From: a virus
Strand: one strand, 5' to 3'
Length of the DNA stretch: 20,361 bases
Virus record (IMG/VR): IMGVR_UViG_3300050130_000077
Coordinates: 1 to 20,361 of that record
Shown: positions 128 through 7,066 of the stretch, piece after piece
Layout of the letters: every line of letters starts with the position of its first letter
Position numbering within the stretch: the first letter of the stretch is position 1
Notes under the pieces: model-generated
What the model was told of the DNA's origin: nothing
Databases searched by the model: none
Seen by the model: the letters and a program-made list of their open reading frames with translations, nothing else
Translations under genes and position numbers: made by a program

Positions 128-137
128 CGGACCACCC

Positions 138-431
138 CTAGCGCATTGTGACCGCGAAGCCGGGGATGCCGAGGCCGAAGTCAGGGTCGGAGGAAGCGGG
201 CCGCAGCGGTGCGCGCAATTCGGTCTCGTCCGCCGACACCATCGGCCGGCTAGGCATCAGCCCGGCCTGCAGCCCGATCCACCGGAACGGCTCGCCGCAG
301 TCCGCGCACGACGCCCTGATGTCTGCCGAGTAGGCGCCAGGCTCGCCGCCGCCCTCCCCGGTGAGGCGGTTGATCTCGACGGATGCCGCGAAGTTCTCGT
401 GAGGACACGCCTTGTCAGGGTCGGCTTTCAC
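138..431 (-). CDS. Small phage-type protein with CxxC motif (97 aa)
   Basis: This 97-residue protein starts at GTG 431, overlapping the portal stop by 17 bases, with an AAGGGA-like ribosome site about 7 bases upstream. It begins with an HENF segment, followed by INRLTGEG, a CADCGEPF segment that looks like a zinc or redox CxxC, and VSADETELRAPLRP. From memory, small proteins with this layout (SVEVNRLT...DCGEPFRF...VS.DG.E) are common among actinobacterial phage head-region genes, but their function is unknown to me. Its position is odd: it sits exactly between two halves of a NUDIX domain, so it may have been inserted there. It is a convincing gene of unknown function. Confidence 0.75.
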   Translation of the reverse strand: MKADPDKACPHENFAASVEINRLTGEGGGEPGAYSADIRASCADCGEPFRWIGLQAGLMPSRPMVSADETELRAPLRPASSDPDFGLGIPGFAVTMR

Positions 432-3400
432 CGGGCATCCCTTCGCCTTCGCTGGGATCGAGCGCCCGCTGGAGCATCAGCACCCGCCCCGTGTCCGCAG
501 CGAGCACAGCAAGCCCCGCCACGGCTACCTCGCCAGCAGCCTTGCGGACAGCGAGCCTGCCGCCGTCGTTGAGGTTGTGCGCCTGTACCGGGCCGACCGC
601 GCGGAACTCGAAGTCGTGCCACTCCCCGGCCTGCCGCCGCTTCCTGCGGAAGTTCCTGAACACGGTGAGCTCGGACTTCACCGCCGCAGTGCGCGCGGCC
701 TCCTCGTCCACGGCGACGACATAGTCCGGGATGATGACCTGCGGCTTGCCGTCGTCATCCTCGCCAGGTCCGTCGTAGCCGTAGATCCCGGTGTCGCTGG
801 TGATCCCCGCCGTGGGTGCGCCTTCGCCTTCCTTGGCGACCGTCCCCGGCTGCTGCGGTCCTGCTGGCGGCAGGGCGGACGGGCCGTACTCCTGCTCGGC
901 CAGCGGCTCCCCGATCAGCGGCGGGGACGTGACGACGCCCTCGACGGTGGTGAATGCCTGATGCGGCAGGGAGGCCCCCGGCTCGGGCGCGGCCGTCGCC
1001 TCGTCTACCGGGCCCGCGACCGAGTCCAGCGAGATCAGCGGGATCGGCCCGGCGCGGGAGGAGAAGATAAACCGCGGCACCGGGACCGGATCGGACCAGC
1101 CCCACCGCTCCTCACGGACCTCGCTGGTCGACACGGTGCCGTTCTTGATGTAGATGTCATCAGCCTGCGCCTGGGCCAGCCGGTCGTCCTGCTCCTCGCC
1201 GCGGTCGAACTGGTGCTTCAGCGGCAGCCCGAGGTCATCCTGCAGGAACCCGGTGATGATGCCCTCGACGTGGTTCTCCAGCGGCAGCTCGCCGACCTTG
1301 TGCACCACGTCGGCCTGCGACTCGCCAGATGACCTGTTGACATCCTCCGTGAATCCGAGGTCGCTAGGCACCGTGTGATAGGCGGCCAGCGTCTTGCGCA
1401 TCAGGAACAGGCTGAACTGGTCGCTGAAGTCCTTCTCGTTGCTCCACGCGAACTTGGTACCGGGCGGCATCCACTTGATCTGGTGCTTGCCAGCCTGGTC
1501 GCCGTACATCATCGCGTCCCAGTAGACCTGGAACGCCTCGATCTGGTCGGGGCTCCAGGTCTCCGGGGCCGCGGCGAAGGCAGCAGGAAGATTGCCGGCT
1601 GTGAACCGTTCCAAAAAGTAGAGCTGGAACCTCATATCGGTGTTGGCGCACCATGATGGATAGCCATTCCTGCGCACATACAGCGTCTTGTTGGGAACGC
1701 TTACGCAATAGACCTTGCCCTCATAGGGAACGGGCTCAACGTCGATGCGATAGGCCGGCTTACGGCGAGTCTGGATTTGCCACCGCTGGTGATGGGCCGG
1801 CTTTGCCGGCTTCCCCACAGGACGCACCGCCCCAGAATAACCGATCTTCTGCAAAACCTCCTGCAGGCCATCTGCGAGGCGCTTGCTGCACGTGGACACG
1901 ATCTCCGTGCGAGGATAGATGGCCCCGTCACCCAGGACGTAGAAGTGCCAGAAAATCTCAAGCTGGCGCCGGGACATCCCGAGCACCTCGCGCGGGATGT
2001 ACTTCTCATGCGCCTTCCCGAATGGCCGCAGGTAGTCGGCCAGCGCCGTATGGCCGAAAGTGAAGGCGCCCCGGTGATACGGGGCTTCGCGTCCGAGCAT
2101 CCGCGCCAGCAGATCGCGGAACTCCACATAGCCCTTGGAGAACTCCTCCTGCGCGATGGTGATGTTCGAGCAGTCTGGCCTGACGCATCCCTCCGACAGG
2201 TACATGCCCATGAAGGCGGCGAAGTCGTCGCCTTCAATGCGGCTGCTGAAGTAGTGCGCGTCTTCCCGGATGACGCCGCGAGGCAGTCCGTAGGCATCGC
2301 GGATAGCTTCGGCCGACGCCCGGCGCAGGCGCTCGCCTCTTTCCGCCCGGCGCAGTGTGGGATGAGTGATGCCGAGGCTGCAAGCCGGGAAGCCGGCGTT
2401 TGCCCGCGCCTCGCGCACCGCCTCCCCGTCCATGCGCACGAAGTCGCACGGGCTGACGGGAAGCGTGAAGCACTCAAGGTCGGGGGCGCTCCAGGTGCTC
2501 GTCGCCGGGCACCTGACGCCCGCTCCCCCGCCGGGAAGCGCGGACTGGTACTCGTAGAGGTCCGCGGCGTGAACCAGCCATTCGCTGCCGTGCCTGACGC
2601 CCGGACAGCCGCTGGGCAGGCGGTTGACCAGCAGCCGGTGGCCGCCGGTGACGAGCAGGTCCGCGTTCCTGGACGCGGCGTGGTACATGATGCCGTCGGA
2701 GTCGGCCTCGTAGTACCTGGTCGCCGATTGCCACTCAAACGCAGCGGTCGCGGGATTGCGCGTCGCGAACCTGTCTGAGCTGATGTCCGCCTCTGCGAAC
2801 CGCAGCCAGCCGCGGTCTGTCAGAACCTCGGTGTCGTCGCTGTAGCAGTTCGCGTTCAGGATTATGCTTTCCAGTGGCGCGTACCCATACAGCGAGTTCG
2901 GGCGCGGACGGAATGGCTCGTAGATAATATCGTCCCTGGTCAGCCAGTTCCAGGGCAGGCCATTGACGTACTGAACATACGCCTCCGCAGGCGGCTGAGG
3001 CGGATTCCCCCAGTAGTCCAACAATGGCGCTATTGTCGTTCCGTCGATCACACTCAAGCCTACCACTTTACCGCCGCGATTACGCAGCCGGTAAAGCGCT
3101 CCCGCATCATAAGCGAGAATGTCATAAAGGTATTTGGCAAGCCACGTGCTGAACGAGCTGATCCGGTCGGGCTTCTTCAGTGCGACCATGCCGATCTTAA
3201 CGGCATCCTCGACGTCGCTATTGAATCCGTCGGCCGCGACCAATTTCCAGTCCAGTGACCGGATTGAGTCGATGCGATGCCAAATCGCGATCTGCGCGAT
3301 GTCATAGGAGTCGACCAGCCCGCGGAGCGTCTCGAAGCTGACCCGCTCGTGGATCCTGGGCCGGGTGGCAATGTTCGTCCCGGTGACGAAATCCTGTGAC

Positions 3401-3573
3401 CTCGGGCGACGGTCGTAGCCGTCATAGGGTCCGATGGGCGTACCGGGCGAGAACGGGGACGCCGGGGTCATCTGCGAGGCTTCTTCGCCCTCGCGGAACG
3501 ACTCCGGCGTGCCGGGGCCGAACACCTTGGCGACGCGGGTCAGGCCGTCATGGATGCGGGAGCGGACGCCCAT
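415..3573 (-). CDS. Phage portal protein interrupted by an intein, with a C-terminal half NUDIX domain
   Basis: The ORF encodes 1052 residues, about 650 after removal of the intein (residues 243-644). The portal protein is the dodecameric ring at the capsid vertex through which terminase pumps DNA. N-terminal hallmarks are the DSYDIAQIAIWHRIDSIRSL region, a WKLVA strand and the APLESIILNAN/TDMRFQLYFLERFTAGNLP core; the last joins across the intein and matches the conserved 'yfteGniP' portal segment. After the core (VPRFIFSS) come a Pro/Gly-rich linker, a helical part (SELTVFRNFRRKRRQAGEW, HNLNDGGRLAVRKAAGEV) and then AGLAVLAADTGRVLMLQRALDP, the first strands of a NUDIX fold, which is cut off by the stop. 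I chose ATG 3573 because GAGGGGG lies about 8 bases upstream; an in-frame start at 3612 lacks this. The N-extein and intein are less GC-rich than the flanks. The C-terminal linker returns to high GC. Confidence 0.88.
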   Translation of the reverse strand: MGVRSRIHDGLTRVAKVFGPGTPESFREGEEASQMTPASPFSPGTPIGPYDGYDRRPRSQDFVTGTNIATRPRIHERVSFETLRGLVDSYDIAQIAIWHRIDSIRSLDWKLVAADGFNSDVEDAVKIGMVALKKPDRISSFSTWLAKYLYDILAYDAGALYRLRNRGGKVVGLSVIDGTTIAPLLDYWGNPPQPPAEAYVQYVNGLPWNWLTRDDIIYEPFRPRPNSLYGYAPLESIILNANCYSDDTEVLTDRGWLRFAEADISSDRFATRNPATAAFEWQSATRYYEADSDGIMYHAASRNADLLVTGGHRLLVNRLPSGCPGVRHGSEWLVHAADLYEYQSALPGGGAGVRCPATSTWSAPDLECFTLPVSPCDFVRMDGEAVREARANAGFPACSLGITHPTLRRAERGERLRRASAEAIRDAYGLPRGVIREDAHYFSSRIEGDDFAAFMGMYLSEGCVRPDCSNITIAQEEFSKGYVEFRDLLARMLGREAPYHRGAFTFGHTALADYLRPFGKAHEKYIPREVLGMSRRQLEIFWHFYVLGDGAIYPRTEIVSTCSKRLADGLQEVLQKIGYSGAVRPVGKPAKPAHHQRWQIQTRRKPAYRIDVEPVPYEGKVYCVSVPNKTLYVRRNGYPSWCANTDMRFQLYFLERFTAGNLPAAFAAAPETWSPDQIEAFQVYWDAMMYGDQAGKHQIKWMPPGTKFAWSNEKDFSDQFSLFLMRKTLAAYHTVPSDLGFTEDVNRSSGESQADVVHKVGELPLENHVEGIITGFLQDDLGLPLKHQFDRGEEQDDRLAQAQADDIYIKNGTVSTSEVREERWGWSDPVPVPRFIFSSRAGPIPLISLDSVAGPVDEATAAPEPGASLPHQAFTTVEGVVTSPPLIGEPLAEQEYGPSALPPAGPQQPGTVAKEGEGAPTAGITSDTGIYGYDGPGEDDDGKPQVIIPDYVVAVDEEAARTAAVKSELTVFRNFRRKRRQAGEWHDFEFRAVGPVQAHNLNDGGRLAVRKAAGEVAVAGLAVLAADTGRVLMLQRALDPSEGEGMPGESRP
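451..528 (-). other. N-terminal half of a NUDIX domain fused to the portal C-terminus
   Basis: The portal ORF ends with VAGLAVLAADTGRVLMLQR followed by ALDPS. This is the usual first beta hairpin of a NUDIX hydrolase (a hydrophobic strand, a turn with DTGRVL, then LLLQR). In an intact domain the next strand would be KFEFAGGHLE, which is instead found at 98-67 in a separate ORF. After ALDPS the portal frame runs 11 unrelated residues to a stop. The two halves therefore fit head to tail around the 138-431 gene. The short DP motif occurs on both sides of the break (GATCCC against GACCCC). I infer that an ancestral portal-NUDIX fusion was split. Confidence 0.65.
1642..2847 (-). other. Intein (402 aa) with LAGLIDADG homing endonuclease, inserted in the portal gene
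   Basis: An intein is a self-splicing protein insert. The first residue is Cys (CYSDDTEVLTDRGWLRF, block A), and block B contains VTGGHRLLV with the TxxH motif. Block F is EGKVYCVSVP and the C-terminus is NGYPSWCAN, with Thr as the +1 extein residue. Excision would join LNAN to TDMRF exactly at a conserved portal segment. Between the splicing blocks lie two LAGLIDADG-like helices, FMGMYLSEG and FWHFYVLGDG, the signature of a DOD homing endonuclease that spreads the insert. Ahead of them, at portal residues about 384-430, is a region resembling an XRE-type HTH (VREARANAGF...RRAERGERLRRAS), a possible DNA-recognition part. The penultimate residue is Ala rather than the usual His, a known kind of variation. 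The endonuclease acidic residues (E and D of the two motifs) are present, so it may be active. Confidence 0.9.
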
Positions 3574-3604
3574 TGAGCCGCCCCCTCGCTGCCATGATGG
3601 GCGG

Positions 3605-3985
3605 GTGAGCAACGAGGAGCTAACCGCGTGGGCGCTGACCAGTGACGGGCCGGACTGCGAGCCGGATGTCAGCTTCGGCTCGTTCTACGGCTGCGTGACG
3701 GCCGGGCGGTGGATTGCGGGCGTGATGAGCTGGTCGGATTCCCCGCTCTGGGTGGACACGATCCTGCTGGGCGAGGACCGGTTCGTGATCCGGCCCCGCG
3801 TCCGGGTGTCGCCCGGGCGGACAGCGTGGTTCAACCTGGGCGGCTGGCCAGCAACCCCCAGGAGCCGCTGGCCGGCGCCGGACATCAACCCCGTGGCGTT
3901 CACCGAGCATGTGCTCAGCCGGCCGCTGGACTGGCTTCGCGACGATGAGCGGCAGGACATGCGGCGGATCTTCGGGCTAAGCTAG
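3605..3985 (+). CDS. Unknown 126-aa protein, the only plus-strand gene
   Basis: The protein begins at GTG (MSNEELTAWALTSDG) and ends IFGLS. It has no domain I recognise. Amino-acid composition is balanced, with segments such as SFGSFYGCVTAGRWIAGVMSW, DRFVIRPRVRVSPG and AWFNLGGW that suggest a small beta-rich globular protein, while the opposite-strand frames read as Arg/Ser/Pro-rich noise. It is divergent from the portal gene, with only about 31 bases between the two start codons, and converges on the 4101-4316 gene. A gene against the flow of a packaging operon often marks a late insertion or separately expressed cargo. The start is chosen because the reading frame upstream lies inside the portal N-terminus; the ribosome site (GATGGG) is weak. 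Confidence 0.6.
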   Translation: MSNEELTAWALTSDGPDCEPDVSFGSFYGCVTAGRWIAGVMSWSDSPLWVDTILLGEDRFVIRPRVRVSPGRTAWFNLGGWPATPRSRWPAPDINPVAFTEHVLSRPLDWLRDDERQDMRRIFGLS

Positions 3986-4087
3986 GCGGTCCGGAGGGGT
4001 TGGGCCGGGTGGCCGTGCACATGCCGAGCAGCCGGATCGATTGCGGTGAGAGACCGTGACGGGCCACGCCGGGCTTCACTTGCTGCC

Positions 4088-4100
4088 GCCCCTCCGGGGC
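4088..4100. terminator. Short hairpin in the convergent gap
   Basis: The gap between the stop at 3985 and the stop of the minus-strand gene at 4101 is 115 bases. It ends in a perfect inverted repeat GCCCC-TCC-GGGGC that could form a hairpin for either transcript. There is no U-tract, so a terminator role is only a guess from position. Nothing else recognisable lies in the gap. Confidence 0.3.
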
Positions 4101-4316
4101 CTAGCTCCCGCGCATCCGGCCGGCCAGGCGGAACCATGTGCGCCTGATCCGCCACCACCACCAGCGCCACCGGAACGGCGCCAGCAGCCGCACATGCCAC
4201 GGCACCGGGCCGATGCCGATCTGCCACGGCTTCACGTCGAAGGCCTCGCAGACCTGCCGCTGCAACATCACCAGGTCGCAGGTGAACTCCTCGTCGCTGC
4301 CGGTCTCGCTGGTCAC
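4101..4316 (-). CDS. Small protein with Trp/Arg-rich C-terminus (71 aa)
   Basis: The protein starts at GTG 4316 with a weak TAGG ribosome site. Its first half (EEFTCDLVMLQRQVCEAF DVKPWQIGIGP) looks globular; its CDLVM word also occurs in the preceding gene product (ITCDLVMF). The second half is strikingly rich in Trp and Arg: FRWRWWWWRIRR followed by TWFRLAGRMR, giving a strongly cationic, amphipathic tail of a type seen in membrane-active peptides and in nucleic-acid-binding tails. It is the last of three small genes between the large terminase and the portal. I know no function for it. Confidence 0.6.
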   Translation of the reverse strand: MTSETGSDEEFTCDLVMLQRQVCEAFDVKPWQIGIGPVPWHVRLLAPFRWRWWWWRIRRTWFRLAGRMRGS

Positions 4317-4325
4317 GGACAGAGC

Positions 4326-4769
4326 CTAGCTTCCCCGCACCCGCATCTCGCTGACGATGAACGGGAACACGCCCGTGCGGACCTTGCCGTCATCGTCGGT
4401 GTAGATGCGCTCGCTGCCGATGCGGCCGGGGCGCCCCTGCGGGTCCGGGATACGCTCCGGGAACAGCAGCGGCATCCCCTTGTCGTCGGCGAACATCACC
4501 AGGTCGCAGGTGATGAAGCTCTGCACATCGGCGGTGACGCGGAGGATGGTGGCCTTCTCCACGGTCGTGATGAGCTTGCCGGTCGTGGCGTCCAGGATCG
4601 AGCAGTCCCATGCGGGCATCATCCTCGGTATCCCGTCCTTGCGGCGGGGCACCGGCCACTCGATGATCACGTAGCCGTAGTACTGCCGCTCCGGGCCCTG
4701 CGGCCACGGGTCGTCCCCGGCGATCTCGGCGTCTGCGATCTCGCCGGGTACTGCTACCTCAGTGGTCAT
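4326..4769 (-). CDS. Hypothetical packaging-region protein (147 aa)
   Basis: This 147-residue protein is not recognised. It has an acidic start (VAVPGEIADAEIAGDD), then strands such as QYYGYVIIEWPVPR, CSILDATTGKLITTVEKATILRV and ITCDLVMFADDKG, ending TGVFPFIVSEMRVRGS, all consistent with a beta-rich domain. Its ATG follows a GTGAGG ribosome site about 9 bases upstream that overlaps the stop of the preceding gene (4779), so the two are probably co-translated. Its place between large terminase and portal suggests an accessory role in head assembly or DNA packaging, but that rests on position only. Confidence 0.7.
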   Translation of the reverse strand: MTTEVAVPGEIADAEIAGDDPWPQGPERQYYGYVIIEWPVPRRKDGIPRMMPAWDCSILDATTGKLITTVEKATILRVTADVQSFITCDLVMFADDKGMPLLFPERIPDPQGRPGRIGSERIYTDDDGKVRTGVFPFIVSEMRVRGS

Positions 4770-4778
4770 CGCCGAGCC

Positions 4779-5264
4779 TCACTGTCCGGGATTCGTCTGG
4801 CCGATGTGGATCGTCCTGTGATCCGGGTGCTGGCGGCCGGTCTCGGTGCGGACCTCCGCGATCATGTCGTCAAGGGTCATGCCGGTGACATCGCCGCACT
4901 CAACCGGGACGACCTCGCGGCAGGCCGTGCACACGACCTCCCTGACCGTCGCGCCGCAGGCGTTCACCGCGGGCGCTATCTCCACCCACGGCTCTGCGTC
5001 ATCCGGCGGTGCGCCCTTCTGCTGTTTACGCACCCATTCGCCCGGGTCTATCGCTATCGCCATCGTGGCCACGTCCGGGCGGCGGCCGGTCAGGCGCTGC
5101 CAGCCGGCGATGAAATCCCGTACCGCGATCATGTGCATCAGGTCATCGGCTGCTGTCCAGGGCCCGTAAGTCTCCTGCATGGTCAGCCCGGTCACGGCCT
5201 CGCGCCACTGGAGGGTCAGGACGATCTGGTCAGGCCGACTTGCGGGCGCCTCATCTACCGCCAC
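4779..5264 (-). CDS. Hypothetical protein with Cys cluster (161 aa)
   Basis: I start this gene at GTG 5264 because AGGAGAG lies 8 bases upstream; it then overlaps the terminase stop by 10 bases, which suggests coupled translation. An ATG at 5294 would lengthen it by ten residues without a ribosome site. The N-terminal half reads QIVLTLQWREAVTGLTMQET and contains a helical DLMHMIAVRDFIAGWQRLTG. The C-terminal half has ACGATVREVVCTACREVVPVECGD, four Cys residues that could bind zinc, and it ends with DDMIAEVRTETGRQH. No family is recognised; the product is probably soluble and belongs to the packaging operon. Confidence 0.7.
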   Translation of the reverse strand: MAVDEAPASRPDQIVLTLQWREAVTGLTMQETYGPWTAADDLMHMIAVRDFIAGWQRLTGRRPDVATMAIAIDPGEWVRKQQKGAPPDDAEPWVEIAPAVNACGATVREVVCTACREVVPVECGDVTGMTLDDMIAEVRTETGRQHPDHRTIHIGQTNPGQ

Positions 5265-7066
5265 CGTGCCGCCTCTCCTCGCTGTGCCTGCCATGCTGCG
5301 TTCCGTGCCCGCTTCCGGGCTTCCACCGGGTCAAGGATCTCCGGGGCCGGCTCAGGTGCGTCCATGCCGCGCTCGGCCGCCCGCTCGTCGCAGTCGCCGG
5401 CGTGCGCGTGGATCTCGTACTGGCCGTCAGCAGCCTGCGCACAGGGGCCGCAGCAGTACAGCGCACCGAGGGACACCAGGCGGAGGCAGTCCGGCTTGCC
5501 GCACTTCCTGAAGTCCTGCACTGCGATGGCCCGGGCCTCAGCGGCTGCGAACTCTGCGTCCGGGCCGATCGCCGCGGCCTGCTCGGCCTTGCGCTTCGCC
5601 CATGCGATCCACGCCTGCGCGCCGTTCCCGTCCAAGAGCAGCTCCGCGAGGGCCTGGCTGGTGGCGTCCACCTGGTCATCGTGGGCGTCGTTCGGGAAGG
5701 CCGCGCACTCGGTTACGTACGCTTCCGTATCGAAGAGGGCGATCTCGGCAGCGGGCAAGAATGCGTTGCCGGCCTCGATGAACGGGGCGACCGCGGTAGC
5801 CCGCGCATACTTCGATTCGGTCGGCGTGATCGCGACGATGCCGGGAATCTTCGACTTCAGCGACGAGATCACGGCCGGGCCGTTCGCCTTGTTCTCGACG
5901 AGCTTTCGCGTTGCCTGCGGCCATCGCGCCACCATCGCCTGGAATGCGACCAGCGTGTCCGTGAAGCTCAGCCGCTTGCGTACCTGGTCGAGCAGGTAGA
6001 CGCTGGCGCCGCGGCGGCACCAGATCTGGCCTGCTACGTAGTCGCTTCCCTTGGTATCGGCAAAGGCCATGTCCCACGACGCGATTACCTCGTCGCACTC
6101 GTGGACGAGGTAAGCGTCCGGGCGGTCAGGATGCTGTGACCACAACGGCGTGCCGTAACGCCGCCACCATTGCCGCTGCCACACGTTCCCCGCATCGGGG
6201 GACGGACGACCCTGGTACAGGGCGGCGAACACGCGGGACCCGGCCTGGATCCGGATCTGCTCCCACTCGGCGACCGTCCGGCCCCGGGCGGACTGGAGCC
6301 ATTCGCCTGGCTCGCGGCCGAGCGGGTCGCTCTGGCCCTTGGCCGGGTCGTGGTCGGCGAGGGCGGGGATGTTGATGACGCGCCACCGGTGGCCGTCCTC
6401 GGCGGCGACGAGGCGGCCGGCCAGGTCGTCTTCGTGCCAGCGGGTGAGGATCACGATCACCGGGGCACCAGGGGCGAGGCGCGGGGCGCCGACCGAGCGC
6501 CACCACTCCCAGACCCGCTCGCGGTAGTAAGCCGACCCGGCCTGCTCGGCATCGGCGAACGGGTCGTCTATGGTCAGTGCGTCAAGCGGGCGGCCGGTCA
6601 GGCCCGATCCGATGCCGACGCAGACGACGCCGCCGCGGTGCCCCTCGAGCTGCCAGCGGCGGGCCGAGCCGTTGTCGCGGGCAATCCTCAGGCCAAGGTT
6701 GAGCGTGCCTTCGTCGCCGTTGAACGTGGTGATGGTGTTGCGGACCTCACGGCCGAAGCCCTCAGCGAGGGACTGCGCGTACGACGCGATGCCGAGCCGG
6801 AGTTCGGGGTTGCGCTCGAGCGCCCACAGCGAGCTGGTCTTCGTGACCCTGCTCGACTTGCCTTCCTGAGGTCCGATCGAGATGATCAGCCGCGCGCCGG
6901 GAGTCGTGTACGCCCAGGTGACTGCCTCGTCTATAAGGTCGAGCGCCGGGGTCTGCACGGTCGTGGGGTCGATGGCTACGGCGAGTTCGCCCGGTGTCTC
7001 CCATGTGCGCTCAACGGCCGGCGGGTCGAGCCTGTCGGCGAGTGAAGCAGCGAAATCAACCGTCAT
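5255..7066 (-). CDS. terL: Phage terminase large subunit with a C-terminal Cys-rich extension
   Basis: This 603-residue protein is the DNA-packaging motor ATPase and nuclease. Walker A-type loop: GPQEGKSS (65-72). Walker B: ALTIDDPF (163-170). Coupling motif: ILTRWHEDD (207-214), typical of the Terminase_6/TIGR01630-like group, as is SYAQSLAEGFGREVRN. The RNase H-like nuclease is marked by SWDMAFAD (D332), ENKANGP (391-397) and NDAHDDQVDA (459-468). After the nuclease, where most large terminases stop, comes about 120 more residues: a KCGKPDC...YCCGPC Cys cluster (C522, C527, C538, C539, C542) and HAGDCDERAAERG, which looks like a zinc-binding tail, perhaps for DNA or for contacts with the portal or small subunit. 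The ATG at 7066 follows a GGGCGGG. The next gene overlaps its end, so the packaging genes are coupled. Confidence 0.93.
   Translation of the reverse strand: MTVDFAASLADRLDPPAVERTWETPGELAVAIDPTTVQTPALDLIDEAVTWAYTTPGARLIISIGPQEGKSSRVTKTSSLWALERNPELRLGIASYAQSLAEGFGREVRNTITTFNGDEGTLNLGLRIARDNGSARRWQLEGHRGGVVCVGIGSGLTGRPLDALTIDDPFADAEQAGSAYYRERVWEWWRSVGAPRLAPGAPVIVILTRWHEDDLAGRLVAAEDGHRWRVINIPALADHDPAKGQSDPLGREPGEWLQSARGRTVAEWEQIRIQAGSRVFAALYQGRPSPDAGNVWQRQWWRRYGTPLWSQHPDRPDAYLVHECDEVIASWDMAFADTKGSDYVAGQIWCRRGASVYLLDQVRKRLSFTDTLVAFQAMVARWPQATRKLVENKANGPAVISSLKSKIPGIVAITPTESKYARATAVAPFIEAGNAFLPAAEIALFDTEAYVTECAAFPNDAHDDQVDATSQALAELLLDGNGAQAWIAWAKRKAEQAAAIGPDAEFAAAEARAIAVQDFRKCGKPDCLRLVSLGALYCCGPCAQAADGQYEIHAHAGDCDERAAERGMDAPEPAPEILDPVEARKRARNAAWQAQRGEAARWR

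Follow-up and report, generated by a model that had tools for sequence, protein, structure and literature searches.

Organization of the portal gene and its intein

The window analysed here is the entire 20,361-bp IMG/VR record IMGVR_UViG_3300050130_000077, and carries the intein-bearing portal gene of a soil phage. A single open frame on the minus strand (415-3573) encodes 242 amino acids of portal protein, a 402-residue intein, the remainder of the portal, and then the start of a NUDIX-like tail. The N-extein (2848-3573, minus strand) begins with an ATG at 3573—an alternative TTG at 3612 is possible—and ends in IILNAN; the C-extein (415-1641, minus strand) begins with the Thr+1 of TDMRF and continues through the portal core into the NUDIX-like segment.

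Family PF04860 matches precursor residues 115-249, within the N-extein; the whole protein scores E 1.3e-8 and 34.9 bits, short of the curated cut-off of 39.1. The nearest isolate over the N-extein is Arthrobacter phage Sonali, whose portal is 47.0% identical at 88% coverage; the portal of Arthrobacter phage Mufasa8 is 45.7% identical over 77%. An intein-free homologue, L030, matches solved portals, its own model being weak (pLDDT 58.7), too weak to place the intein site in the portal structure, and that placement was dropped. NCBIfam returned only a weak match to a replicative helicase model, and a plasmid search with the N-extein returned three distant portals (31-34%); both results were set aside. 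On the evidence of PF04860 and of L030 against the solved portals, the host protein is a portal. A large terminase gene (5255-7066) adjoins, with both terminase domains matched and no sign of an intein within it.

Three further contigs (L007-L009) carry inteins 100% identical to that of the window and match it at 99.8-99.9% over 455-6847, all differences falling within 457-505. A small gene cassette (133-455, minus strand; 97-aa orf at 138-431) lies within the NUDIX-like tail of the window's portal frame; L007 and L008 have a different cassette of ~330 bp at this spot, L009 ends there, and the portal-NUDIX frame is uninterrupted in L011, L013, L014 and L015.

The intein (1642-2847, minus strand, as are all of its parts) consists of a Hint splicing domain with a nested helix-turn-helix-like insert and a LAGLIDADG endonuclease. 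Its first residue is Cys1 (2845-2847), the presumed initiating nucleophile of a class 1 intein, and the block B TxxH motif is TGGH (residues 67-70; 2638-2649), with Leu at B:12. A shrunken Xre/HTH_3-like insert (residues 139-187; 2287-2433), recognized by a profile match and by helices in the model, separates Hint-N from the endonuclease. The first LAGLIDADG motif is FAAFMGMYLSEG (residues 209-220; 2188-2223) and the second is FWHFYVLGDG (residues 299-308; 1924-1953); both contain acidic residues (YLSEG and YVLGDG in the alignment), and the second is degenerate (YVLGDG). The Pfam LAGLIDADG_3 match (residues 299-343, E 0.021) is under the cut-off in the window and over it in L010, an 89% homologue of the intein that likewise ends CAN/T. 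Block F has Cys381 at position 4 (F:4; 1705-1707), and block G ends WCAN (W399-C400-A401-N402; 1642-1653), with Cys400 at G:5, a penultimate Ala, and the terminal Asn codon (1642-1644) followed by the Thr+1 codon (1639-1641), both on the minus strand. There is no penultimate His and no block F His in the window intein. A sequencing error is an unlikely source of the penultimate Ala, with identical inteins in L007-L009 and the Ala kept in L010. Whether it was copied from the adjacent LNAN codon by homing is neither supported nor opposed by the codons, as both inteins use GCC whereas the extein uses GCG in the window and GCA in L010.

The joined portal was aligned to 54 loci: the 48 loci L022-L069, L011, and five phage records (L002-L006). 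The LNAN/TDMRF junction is gap-free, over 12 residues on either side, in 50 of these; the other four are L022-L024, which are near-identical to the window and have its intein, and L059, which ends before the site. The distant phages L004-L006, among the 50, have no Thr at +1, and thus could not, unchanged, host a splicing-competent copy. An AlphaFold2 model of the intein (60 sequences) has a pLDDT of 94.0 and a pTM of 0.87, and its best structural match is the TliVMA intein (Z 26.0, 305 residues aligned, 4.3 A). Further whole-intein matches that include an endonuclease are 2cw7 (Z 25.9), PhoVMA (23.0), PI-PfuI (20.9) and PI-SceI (20.7). The closest of these, TliVMA of Thermococcus litoralis (PDB 7qsu, 7qss) and 2cw7 (listed as 'intein homing endonuclease II'), which we take to be PI-TkoII, match at Z 25.5-26.0 over 302-305 residues and share the arrangement of Hint, LAGLIDADG and accessory domains, but are only 19-20% identical and have archaeal hosts. 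The predicted fold is that of a complete Hint plus LAGLIDADG intein. The first-pass annotation had placed such an intein at 1642-2847 in the portal core with all splicing blocks present, and had proposed a comparison with intein-free homologues across LNAN-TDMRF; its coordinates are exact, Cys1, TGGH, F:4 Cys381, Asn402 and Thr+1 are all located, and both the fold and the gapless site agree with it.

Splicing residues among the relatives

Relatives were collected from two profile scans—one of viral contigs (best 80 of 473) and one of genome contigs (79 loci of 83 candidates)—together with earlier loci, and the sample represents the nearest relatives. At least 194 frames contain a match, of which 175 are full length and 142 are distinct; 19 partial frames were excluded before residues were counted. 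Members come from viral contigs as well as from genome records of bacteria and archaea. By direct reading, position 1 among the 142 distinct matches listed is Cys in 140 and Gly in two. The last residue of these listed matches is Asn (134), Gln (6), Gly (1) or Ser (1), and the +1 residue is Ser (59), Thr (49), Cys (32), Ala (1) or none (1). The penultimate residue, again among the 142 matches listed, is Gly in 134, Ser in four, Ala in two, Cys in one (L101, whose frame stops ahead of the Asn) and Lys in one; only the window sequence and L010 have Ala, both at the same site. No His is present among the ten commonest residues at the block F His position (141 of 142 rows, gaps included, among the matches listed). 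The first-pass annotation had singled out the Ala in place of the penultimate His: the Ala is there, but with Gly in 134 of the 142 matches listed the missing His is the family norm and not a defect.

Three family frames (L101, L102 and L020) end in WCG or WAGSA without the Asn plus extein, and in L101 and L102 Gly replaces Cys at position 1; these are possibly cleaved tails or dead copies. Five others of the same family, in archaeal or bacterial genome records (L188, L211, L214, L221 and L227), are mini-inteins of ~150 residues, too short for an endonuclease, and most of them end WCGN.

The Ssp DnaE split intein has a natural penultimate Ala, as in the window, but keeps the block F His that the window intein lacks. 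The Bethlehem RDF intein and the cluster C1 portal inteins, by their description in the available part of PMC5050341, resemble the window intein as phage class 1 inteins with a non-His penultimate residue and a portal host; the penultimate residue of Bethlehem RDF is Gly, whereas that of the window is Ala. According to the same text, conservation of the penultimate His is poor among mycobacteriophage inteins, which have Gly, Lys or Ser instead; the Bethlehem RDF intein splices completely in an E. coli reporter construct, and changing its Gly to His slows splicing (PMC5050341). Splicing in the absence of these His residues is noted for several inteins in the accessible part of PMC7664689. A literature search of openly licensed papers for penultimate glycine in inteins returned no match.

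Insertion sites in portal genes and transfer between phages

The flanks of the 142 listed inteins were joined and aligned to the portal profile, with positions numbered on the window's joined portal. Thirty-eight inteins matched the profile, and 37 of the 142 matches listed have an exact junction, at ten sites: 78 (1 intein), 179 (13), 195 (4), 201 (3), 205 (2), 231 (5), 242 (the window's site; 2), 255 (4), 326 (2) and 350 (1). An eleventh site, near 97, is occupied in L015, L063 and L064 by a different type of intein ending VHN/C. Some genes are multiply occupied: L098 has two inteins, L015 has two of different type, L147 has two with nine host residues between them, and a portal-like frame in L146 (494-6268) contains three of the window's family. 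L146 has no portal profile match, and L147 has one without an exact junction; both were called portals by eye from a sequence pattern, and that assignment is less sure. The L098 and L063 inteins also led to inteins in so-called portals of GX15bay and Eggerthella phage LE2-3; these gave no portal model match and were left unplaced. Conservation around the intein sites exceeds that around randomly drawn positions (20,000 draws; p 0.0027, 0.0004 and 0.0012 for flanks of 3, 5 and 8), in a mapping that itself favours alignable regions.

A tree of 47 inteins, with the helix-turn-helix columns removed and L146 left out, places the window sequence and L010 in a clade of their own (100/100). The sites need 12 changes on this tree, against a minimum of nine for ten states, which indicates mostly one clade per site with few re-invasions; a single clade for all site-179 inteins is not rejected (p 0.098; group named after the tree was seen). 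The family to which the window intein belongs has invaded the portal gene repeatedly and at many places. As regards the suggestion in the first-pass annotation that a portal insertion is less usual, 11 of 49 portal loci fetched by a portal query contain at least one intein, three of the 11 being near-identical copies of the window's, and six portal inteins are listed for cluster C1 mycobacteriophages in the available part of PMC5050341. The parts consulted of three other papers (PMC7886860, PMC3868846, PMC7156551) report terminase inteins and no portal intein; searches of openly licensed papers for portal intein as a phrase, and for phage inteins at multiple insertion sites, returned no match. 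As described in the accessible part of PMC10643990, haloarchaeal MCM inteins likewise occupy several sites in one conserved gene, some doubly occupied, with four sites there in contrast to ten for one family in a phage structural gene here.

Transfer and selection were estimated from the one diverged pair at the window's site, the window and L010. Their inteins are 89.3% identical in amino acids (dS 0.393, dN 0.063), their N-exteins 64.0% (dS 1.611, near saturation; dN 0.333) and their C-exteins 60.2% (dS 0.765, dN 0.333). The intein dS is below both extein values, so that, for this pair, the intein is of more recent origin than its host portals; it appears to have moved between diverged portals. 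Values of dN/dS for the pair are 0.20 in Hint-N, 0.19 in the linker and helix-turn-helix, 0.09 in the endonuclease and 0.23 in Hint-C, and that of the endonuclease points to purifying selection.

The helix-turn-helix insert was recognized in seven of the 142 matches listed (seeds included), all of them portal inteins, at three sites. Neither this insert nor the occupation of several portal sites figures in the first-pass annotation. HTH_3 scores above the Pfam cut-off in the site-179 inteins L011 and L014, and the window gives HTH_31 at E 0.096; a profile of the L011-L014 segment matches the window intein (via L007) at E 1.2e-5, L010 at 8e-5 and L082 at 2e-4. L094, which falls within the site-179 clade, has no such insert. 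A clade of all the carriers without L094 is rejected (p-AU 0.003), so the insert has been lost or has moved; a clade with L094 included is not rejected (p 0.112), both groups having been named after the tree was seen. The accessory domains of TliVMA and PI-TkoII resemble helix-turn-helix domains (PMC8966425, available part), but the window's differs from them in that it scores as Xre/HTH_3 in its relatives.

Splicing class and proposed mechanism

The class 1 features present in the window intein are Cys1, the TGGH block B, Asn402, Thr+1, the Hint fold and the gapless empty site. Class 3 inteins are marked by the WCT residues—B:12 Trp, F:4 Cys and G:5 Thr—as set out in the available part of PMC5050341; F:4 Cys381 is the single one of the three found here, with Leu at B:12, Cys400 at G:5, and Cys1 present. 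The class 3 inteins MchDnaB1 and Bethlehem DnaB thus share the F:4 Cys with the window intein, and differ from it at B:12, G:5 and Cys1. The first-pass annotation was right that F:4 Cys occurs alongside Cys1, but the residues at B:12, G:5 and position 1 lead us to reject a class 3 assignment. In a hybrid or class 3-like route the F:4 Cys would make or relay the block F branched thioester, and Cys1 would be dispensable. Of the listed matches, 119 of 132 aligned have Cys at F:4. This Cys was part of one of the two search patterns, but 70 of the 92 listed inteins whose block F lacks that pattern have it too, so it is not merely a search artefact. F:4 Cys is moreover the residue that class 3 inteins use, yet it is the second commonest at F:4 across inteins generally, after Asp and ahead of Trp (PMC4031507, in the text available). 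Cys1 is kept in 140 of the 142 matches listed, B:12 is Trp in none of the 139 aligned, and G:5 is mostly Cys or Ser, with Thr in four of 132 aligned; grafting WCT onto a class 1 intein, as the accessible part of PMC7664689 describes, gave no efficiently splicing class 3 intein. We regard this route as very unlikely.

A degenerate intein, in which loss of the His residues leaves cleavage only, or slow conditional splicing that would delay portal production or tie it to a signal such as redox state, is very unlikely. Both His residues are absent, the splicing blocks contain several Cys (Cys1, Cys381 and Cys400), and a disulfide-bonded precursor has been seen with a mutated phage intein (PMC5050341, in the part available); however, His-free ends persist over wide divergence, as the family-wide Gly indicates. 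Purifying selection also appears across all domains (dN/dS 0.09-0.23). Tailed phages cannot do without their portal, and a dead intein in it would for that reason kill the phage.

Because of the literature on F:4 and on inteins that splice without these His residues, we assign the window intein to class 1, without penultimate or block F His and with an ending normal for its family. The insert is very probably a class 1 intein that encodes a homing endonuclease of its own, with splicing, cleavage and the residue roles inferred. Cys1 would turn the peptide bond at LNAN into a thioester, the N-extein would be transferred to Thr+1, and Asn402 would cyclize, rejoining the portal at LNAN-TDMRF. Cyclization would run without either His, the family's usual solution being a small residue in penultimate position (Gly generally, Ala in the window), and the missing His presumably replaced by backbone contacts or by conserved neighbours (F:4 Cys, RRNG, Trp399). 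The precedent of Gly is not strictly applicable to Ala, since Ala occurs in two of the 142 matches listed, both at the window's site. The LAGLIDADG domain, aided by the shrunken helix-turn-helix insert, would cut intein-free portal genes at LNAN/TDMRF and so copy the intein from phage to phage.

Portal inteins and non-His penultimate residues (PMC5050341) and the F:4 Cys (PMC4031507) are already known from the available parts of those papers. A broader proposal, of a widespread His-free class 1 family in which F:4 Cys acts as catalyst (acid-base or transient thioester), portal genes are a main playground, new sites within one gene are captured repeatedly (ten so far) and some members are retargeted by a captured Xre helix-turn-helix, is unlikely as a whole. 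As a class 1 family in which a His-free ending is the rule, these inteins offer many natural test cases for His-independent Asn cyclization, with the ~150-residue mini-inteins as ready small test objects; and the portal gene, having ten sites and as many as three inteins per copy, is a compact system for studying the gain of sites by homing endonucleases inside a single gene.
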